In this document: piece by piece, positions 9,405 to 10,270 of the stretch | Layout of the letters: each line of letters starts with the position of its first letter | Numbering within the stretch: position 1 is the stretch's first letter | Origin: Clostridia bacterium | GTDB lineage: Bacteria; UBA6262; WVXT01; JAUXBS01 | Assembly: GCA_030618495.1 (NCBI GenBank) | Contig: JAUXDE010000058.1 | Span: 1 to 10,784 of the forward strand | DNA length: 10,784 bases | Reading direction: 5' to 3' | Program-made: the position numbers and the translations under genes | The notes under the pieces: model-generated | Told to the model about the DNA's origin: nothing | Databases searched by the model: none | The model's input: only the letters and a program-made list of their open reading frames with translations

Positions 9405-9454
9405 TAGAGCGCCTGGCGCCGGGATTGCTTGACGGGTTCTTTTCTAAAACTGAA

Positions 9455-9550
9455 ATGATCAGAAACTTTAAAGAAAACATCTGGATAAAAATAATTGCGG
9501 TAATTCTTGCAACCGTGTTATGGTGGTATGTGAAATATATTGGAAAATAG
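9455..9550 (+). CDS. 31-residue single-helix membrane microprotein resembling the CdaR/YbbR N-terminus
   Basis: This short frame reads MIRNFKENIWIKIIAVILAT, followed by VLWWYV and a few more residues. It has a charged start, then one hydrophobic helix (about 9-26) ending in paired tryptophans. That pattern (a short basic segment, N-x-W-x-K-I-I-A, and a tryptophan near the end) is how CdaR/YbbR proteins begin, and the position between cdaA and pdxJ is where cdaR often lies. The family's YbbR repeats are entirely absent, because the stop (9548-9550) directly abuts the ATG of pdxJ. The frame is open upstream to 9371, so TTG 9425 (41 residues) is an alternative start. Neither start has a strong ribosome site. 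Zero spacing to pdxJ suggests coupled translation. It could be a functional anchor peptide or the leftover of a deleted gene. Confidence 0.5.
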   Translation: MIRNFKENIWIKIIAVILATVLWWYVKYIGK

Positions 9551-10270
9551 ATGTTACAACTTGGCGTGAACATTGACCATATTGCGACTCTGCGCCAGGC
9601 CCGCGGCGGGTCTGAGCCGGACCTGCTTTCAGGCGCCGTAATTGCTGAGAAAGCGGGAGCCGATGGCATTACCGTTCATTTAAGGGAGGACAGGCGCCAT
9701 ATCCAGGATGTTGATGTCTTTGAGTTAAGGAAAAGAGTAAAAACCAAGTTAAATCTTGAAATGGCCGTGTCTGAGGAAATTGTAGGAATTGCATTGAAAC
9801 TGAAACCCCACAATGTATGCATGGTCCCGGAAAAAAGGCAGGAACTTACCACCGAAGGCGGACTTGATGTTTGCGCCCGGAAGAAAAAAATCAGCGAGGC
9901 AGTAAAACGTTTAAGGAAAAAGAAAATAATTGTCAGTCTTTTTATTGACCCCGAATTAAAGCAGGTTAAGGCGGCAGGAGAAGTCGGGGCTGACTGTGTT
10001 GAACTCCATACCGGCGCCTATGCCAATGCGGGGACGCAGCGGCTAAAAGGAAAAGAACTGGCAAGGCTGAGGAAATCAGCGGAATTGGCTGTAAACCTTG
10101 GGCTGGTTCTGAATGCCGGCCATGGACTGGATTATAAAAATGTGACGCCCGTGGCGGGGATTTGCGGAATGAACGAGTTAAACATAGGCCATTCAATTAT
10201 TTCCAGGGCTATAACGGTTGGTTTGGAGAATGCTGTCAAGGAAATGAAAAATCTACTGAAGGTCAGGTAA
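9551..10270 (+). CDS. pdxJ: Pyridoxine 5'-phosphate synthase
   Basis: Last step in building the vitamin B6 ring by the deoxyxylulose-5-phosphate-dependent route: 1-deoxyxylulose 5-phosphate plus 3-amino-2-oxopropyl phosphate gives pyridoxine 5'-phosphate. It is a 239-residue TIM barrel of standard length. The start [17 protein letters not shown] is diagnostic. The catalytic set is His43 ([10 protein letters not shown]), Glu70 (NLEMA) and His191 (NAGHGL), matching His45/Glu72/His193 of the E. coli enzyme as I recall them. It begins right after the stop of the microprotein frame, with only a weak GGAAAA ribosome site. The cdaA - cdaR - pdxJ neighbourhood is known from other diderm bacteria. Its product is the precursor of the PLP needed by the synthase at the head of the unit. 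Confidence 0.97.

Follow-up and report, generated by a model that had tools for sequence, protein, structure and literature searches.

Introduction

The locus that is analysed here raises the question of what is encoded in the short interval between cdaA, the gene of a diadenylate cyclase, and pdxJ, where the cyclase regulator CdaR might be expected. The window, i.e. the whole stretch of DNA that was analysed, comprises 10,784 nucleotides from the genome of a Clostridia bacterium. Canonical CdaR (YbbR), the regulator of CdaA (DacA), consists of a transmembrane domain and three or four extracytoplasmic YbbR domains (PMC10243994) and binds CdaA via the transmembrane domains (PMC10243994; PMC8573169); whether it raises or lowers c-di-AMP varies with the species and the conditions (PMC8573169; PMC9259658), and the mechanism of this control has been stated to be unclear (PMC8573169). 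The initial annotation of the window had claimed that the slot holds only a 31-residue peptide similar to the beginning of CdaR, and had offered two readings: a previously undescribed minimal CdaR, or the scar of a clean deletion.

Results

The interval between cdaA and pdxJ

The features of the locus are listed in Table 1. By its family matches (TIGR00159, 242.7 bits against a cut-off of 188.8; PF02457, 139 bits; CdaA_N, PF19293, 38 bits), the product of the upstream gene is an intact membrane diadenylate cyclase: the HDGAV (HDGA) and GTRHRA (TRHR) motifs can be read in its DAC domain, the definition of a CdaA-type cyclase (CdaA_N followed by a DAC domain with DGA and RHR motifs) is fulfilled, and no other DAC protein is encoded in the window genome. 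After a gap of 50 nt follows the open reading frame that we refer to as micro-CdaR, the stop codon of which directly abuts the start codon of pdxJ, just as had been described; pdxJ itself is an operon neighbour that lies outside the mechanism discussed below.

Table 1. Features of the window locus and loci of CdaA-helix fusions.
Feature	Position	Strand	Description
cdaA	8646..9404	+	membrane diadenylate cyclase by family matches, 252 aa, TTG start; CdaA_N membrane domain and DAC domain
micro-CdaR ORF	9455..9550	+	ATG 9455, TAG 9548-9550; 31 aa, MIRNFKENIWIKIIAVILATVLWWYVKYIGK; corresponds to the N-terminal membrane helix of CdaR and lacks YbbR domains
TTG-initiated N-terminal extension, possible but unlikely	9425..9454	+	in-frame TTG at 9425, would make 41 aa
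pdxJ	9551..10270	+	pyridoxine 5'-phosphate synthase; PF03740, 338.7 bits; ATG 9551 directly after the micro-CdaR stop
CdaA-helix fusions: L159, L214, L215, L216, L188			C-terminal CdaR-like helix; two phylum-level groups

The length of 31 residues is taken as the conserved one, because the open frame at this site in a relative of the same genus comprises only 37 codons from stop to stop, where the TTG extension is not conserved, and because the other relatives start at an equivalent ATG. No clear Shine-Dalgarno site precedes the ATG of micro-CdaR in the window or in the relatives of its order; over the micro-CdaR set as a whole, such sites are more frequent than expected (19 of 97, vs 8), an excess that the window's order does not share. 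With no Shine-Dalgarno-like site in the window group, the mode of translation initiation is left open, and translation itself is inferred.

Similarity to the N-terminus of CdaR

The comparison with CdaR is based on a helix profile to which 22 CdaR proteins with YbbR domains, of full or single-domain length, contributed nothing but their N-termini; all of them originate from outside Omnitrophota and outside the window's order. The window peptide scores 37.2 bits on this profile, while the best of 1110 shuffles, in which the pattern of hydrophobic and polar positions of each peptide was preserved, scores 15.1 bits; micro peptides from all sources (n=111) score between 19.5 and 50.4 bits, every one of them above 99% of the shuffles. 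The window peptide thus qualifies as a CdaR-type N-terminal membrane helix, which bears out the claim about the content of the slot, and a generic membrane helix without CdaR ancestry is ruled out by the shuffle scores. The weak short matches L178, L180, L182 and L183, together with L181, which has no profile match, have been set aside as probable chance matches.

Nearly invariant positions of micro-CdaR are occupied by N/H, L-K, L, A, W and Y, the invariance of the lysine being partly a matter of construction, since this residue served as the alignment anchor. The conserved residues are somewhat clustered on one face of the helix (100 degrees per residue, permutation p = 0.015); such clustering fits a packing surface, yet it is only moderately significant and constitutes weak evidence alone.

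Two further properties define CdaR. Its gene is located next to cdaA, as is the ORF of the window, and it carries extracytoplasmic YbbR domains, for which the ORF of the window leaves no room. The genome-wide search that the initial annotation had advised found no match to YbbR (PF07949) in the whole window genome (1.69 Mb, 98% complete), with positive results in genomes known to carry the domain, e.g. that of Bacillus subtilis. Because the YbbR property is missing, micro-CdaR is not an ordinary member of the CdaR family.

Conservation and selection

In each of the five relatives from the order, all represented by independent assemblies, cdaA is followed by a homologue of 31 residues and then by either pdxJ or glmM. 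One of them belongs to the same genus: its CdaA is 83-84% identical to that of the window, its micro-CdaR product, encoded at the same place, is 84% identical, and the stretches between cdaA and the ORF (50 nt vs 29 nt) have no visible similarity; for this pair, the pN/pS ratio amounts to 0.16 in micro-CdaR, 0.14 in cdaA and 0.27 in pdxJ. The other four genomes, from a sister family, encode exactly 31 residues and then glmM instead of pdxJ.

Over 19 independent species pairs with micro-CdaR ORFs of equal length, the summed pN/pS ratio is 0.235, whereas the ratio has a median of 0.91 and never falls below 0.66 in 500 simulations with the same number of randomly placed substitutions; strong purifying selection on micro-CdaR at the protein level is supported. 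Both of these checks, the search for the same short frame in related genomes and the test for selection, had been proposed beforehand, and their outcome, along with the absence of YbbR from the genome, supports the reading as a minimal CdaR.

Distribution in Omnitrophota

The same arrangement, an ORF of 31 residues between cdaA and pdxJ, occurs in a metagenome-assembled genome of Omnitrophota (locus L031). The CdaR helix profile matches 195 of the 237 Omnitrophota genomes, and the open frames fall into three classes, with lengths of about 310-340 residues, about 140-180 residues and fewer than 100 residues. We have read 109 closed cases individually: 91 are ORFs of 29-74 residues, each the next gene downstream of cdaA in the same orientation and, in 88 cases, followed by pdxJ, and the remaining 18 encode 135-150 or 307-325 residues, without exception in genomes with YbbR domains.

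YbbR domains are present in 97 of the 237 genomes, but in only one of the 91 micro-CdaR genomes; the other 90 lack the domain genome-wide. In the exception (G259), the YbbR match shares a single frame of 497 residues with a second DAC domain (G259:C2, about 16303-17103, minus strand) and is therefore attributed to a CdaA-CdaR fusion paralogue; this genome also carries a micro-CdaR beside another cdaA. Full, single-YbbR and YbbR-less forms coexist in Omnitrophota, which points to loss of the domain. By parsimony, the CdaA tree implies 5-6 changes within Omnitrophota, but its well-supported branches force only one, and we claim no count of independent YbbR losses because the other branches are poorly supported. 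The proportion of 91/237 is a lower bound on the frequency of the short form, since most of the 91 cases were chosen for their short frames; about 50 of the 237 genomes remain unclassified.

The YbbR matches of seven other Omnitrophota genomes (G241, G127, G154, G203, G218, G243 and G209) also lie in long frames, of 488-502 residues, which may be of the same fusion type.

Distribution in other phyla, fusions and unlinked copies

The phenomenon extends beyond the scope of the initial annotation, to Omnitrophota and to four other phylum-level groups. Most CdaR-type helices in 386 genomes sampled across the domain open longer proteins, and some frames stop right after the helix. In the phyla of four genomes with such frames, the helix profile matches 20 of the 31 genomes (phylum of G441), 13 of 16 (G454), 2 of 3 (G357) and 5 of 5 (G607); nearly all of the cases read in these four groups encode about 26-45 residues next to cdaA, and the short form is the rule there. 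Together with Omnitrophota and the window's own group, micro-CdaR is found in six phylum-level groups of the classification used. YbbR is absent from 42 of the 43 genomes that were checked in the four further groups and the window's order. CdaR-type helices occur in 23 of 51 sampled genomes with CdaA, as opposed to none of the nine without it (Fisher p = 0.008).

In some lineages, the helix is joined to the cyclase: it forms the C-terminal end of CdaA in a single frame of 296-298 residues in G607, G479, G665 and G666, and CdaA and helix share a frame of 293 residues in G634, which belongs to another phylum-level group. Three genomes have an unlinked copy, with cdaA on another contig: in G501 and G364 (L177, L179), neither of which has YbbR in its genome, a CdaR-like ORF of 34-35 residues is flanked by topA and panC, while in G572 such an ORF lies upstream of glmM. 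Taken together, fusions and unlinked copies speak for a product that works in trans and has CdaA as its partner.

Because the DAC domain that precedes the helix in the fusions is cytoplasmic, the fused helix must enter the membrane N-in, as CdaR does. Among 108 micro peptides, the positive charge of the N-terminal flank is higher than that of the other flank in 87 and lower in 13. The N-in/C-out orientation of micro-CdaR has only this indirect support, from the charge bias and from fusions in other lineages.

Proposed role of micro-CdaR and alternative explanations

A ybbR mutant of Staphylococcus aureus can be suppressed by the substitution G78V, which lies in transmembrane helix 3 of DacA (PMC5207132), and higher oligomers are needed for CdaA activity (PMC8573169). 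From these two observations and from the transmembrane contact of CdaR with CdaA, we infer that micro-CdaR is an extra subunit that sets the packing of CdaA. According to this explanation, which we consider the best one and hold with good confidence, the N-terminal transmembrane helix of CdaR would have been kept as an independent protein of about 31 residues, while the extracytoplasmic YbbR domains have gone; it would insert N-in/C-out as one more membrane subunit of the cyclase, packed against the transmembrane domain of CdaA, and this packing would set the assembly, and hence the activity, of the cyclase from inside the membrane, without an external sensor domain.

The homology to CdaR, the protein-level selection, the near-universal linkage to cdaA, the absence of YbbR and, indirectly, the topology are supported, while translation, direct contact between the helix and those of CdaA, and an influence on c-di-AMP synthesis, of undetermined sign, are inferred. 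That a lone helix could regulate the cyclase, as had been suggested for the window, likewise remains an inference, with no measurement of translation, binding or c-di-AMP. The lack of direct evidence for translation, the moderate clustering on the helix face and the three unlinked genomes weigh against the subunit explanation. No structure of the membrane part of a CdaA-CdaR complex was found, the best PDB match to CdaA (9g69) being a CdaA-GlmM complex, and no PDB chain matches the CdaR helix profile.

The maintenance of so small a gene by selection, in over 100 genomes of at least six phylum-level groups, makes it probable that the helix by itself is a functional component of the CdaA enzyme. 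We also lean, with more reserve, towards a broader proposal: the conserved core of the CdaA-CdaR system in many bacteria, across at least six phylum-level groups, would be a single helix of about 30 residues, an obligate extra helix of the cyclase, either separate or fused, and YbbR would be an accessory sensor, the loss of which leaves the partner in place.

Among the alternatives, the one that survives best is an assembly factor without regulation, i.e. a structural subunit that serves only the folding, stability or membrane insertion of CdaA. It remains a possibility to be kept in mind, though a tentative one; it overlaps with the preferred explanation, being a sub-case that differs only in whether activity is changed or CdaA merely supported. 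No sensor domain is left, the fused versions resemble a constitutive fourth helix of CdaA, and nothing decisive speaks against it.

It is unlikely that the peptide acts on another partner, e.g. GlmM or an envelope protein, and merely shares an operon with cdaA. The presence of glmM among the neighbours in several groups and the three unlinked copies are compatible with such a role, but all 91 Omnitrophota cases adjoin cdaA whatever comes next, the fusion partner is CdaA, and CdaA is the known partner of the homologous CdaR (PMC10243994). A leader or translational-coupling ORF, with an inert peptide and a translation that serves the expression of pdxJ or glmM, would explain why the stop codon abuts or nears the next start codon in many loci, including the window; we reject it as very improbable, because the downstream gene varies (pdxJ, glmM, panC) at a spacing of -19 to 171 nt, selection acts on the amino acids, unlinked copies exist, and CdaA and the helix form a single protein in two groups. 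Least tenable of all is a functionless 5' remnant of cdaR after a recent deletion or an assembly join: although the peptide resembles the start of CdaR and stops where pdxJ begins, this reading is refuted by the frame of exactly 31 residues and the recurrence of its junction in five independent assemblies with different downstream genes, by protein-level purifying selection, by more than 100 parallel cases, and by the absence of a full-length cdaR, or of any YbbR domain, from every close relative.

Comparison with known systems

Single-helix bacterial membrane microproteins of about 30-50 residues that bind larger membrane proteins include KdpF, CydX and AcrZ. Micro-CdaR resembles them, without a tested relation, in having one membrane helix that would act on a larger membrane protein, and differs from them in its origin, the anchor of a larger regulator that is already known, and in the inferred target, a nucleotide cyclase. 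With CdaR, it shares the position after cdaA, the profile match, an N-terminal membrane helix with the pattern N-x3-K-x6-A-x3-W-x-Y and, on indirect evidence only, the N-in orientation, but it lacks any YbbR domain. In the CdaA-CdaR fusions of some streptococci, the membrane helix of CdaR is physically joined to CdaA, as in G607 and G634; the streptococcal fusions contain the YbbR part (PMC10243994), whereas those of the G607 and G634 type stop immediately behind the helix.

Neither the window peptide nor the other tested peptides, from Omnitrophota, match any model of Pfam or NCBIfam. Within a literature search that left subscription journals and preprints largely uncovered, we found no paper joining Omnitrophota and c-di-AMP and nothing relevant on short or truncated forms of CdaR or on microproteins encoded next to a diadenylate cyclase; to that extent, the form is, as the initial annotation had supposed, previously undescribed. 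A widespread microprotein that the models of both databases miss is thereby revealed. That CdaR is reduced to a helix under selection in more than 100 genomes points to this membrane helix, and not to the YbbR domains, as the part that cannot be dispensed with, and micro-CdaRs and the natural CdaA-helix fusions offer minimal partners for structure prediction and for reconstitution of the cyclase.

Additional observations

Five Omnitrophota loci (L048, L061, L067, L073 and L075) encode 60-residue versions, in which about 30 conserved residues (KQLYKSS...KKPVK) extend beyond the helix as a tail that would lie on the outer side of the membrane. Elsewhere in the window, positions 48-1736 of the plus strand encode a protein of 562 residues with an unusual pairing of an RNA polymerase alpha C-terminal domain (PF03118) and a sigma-70 region 4 (PF04545).
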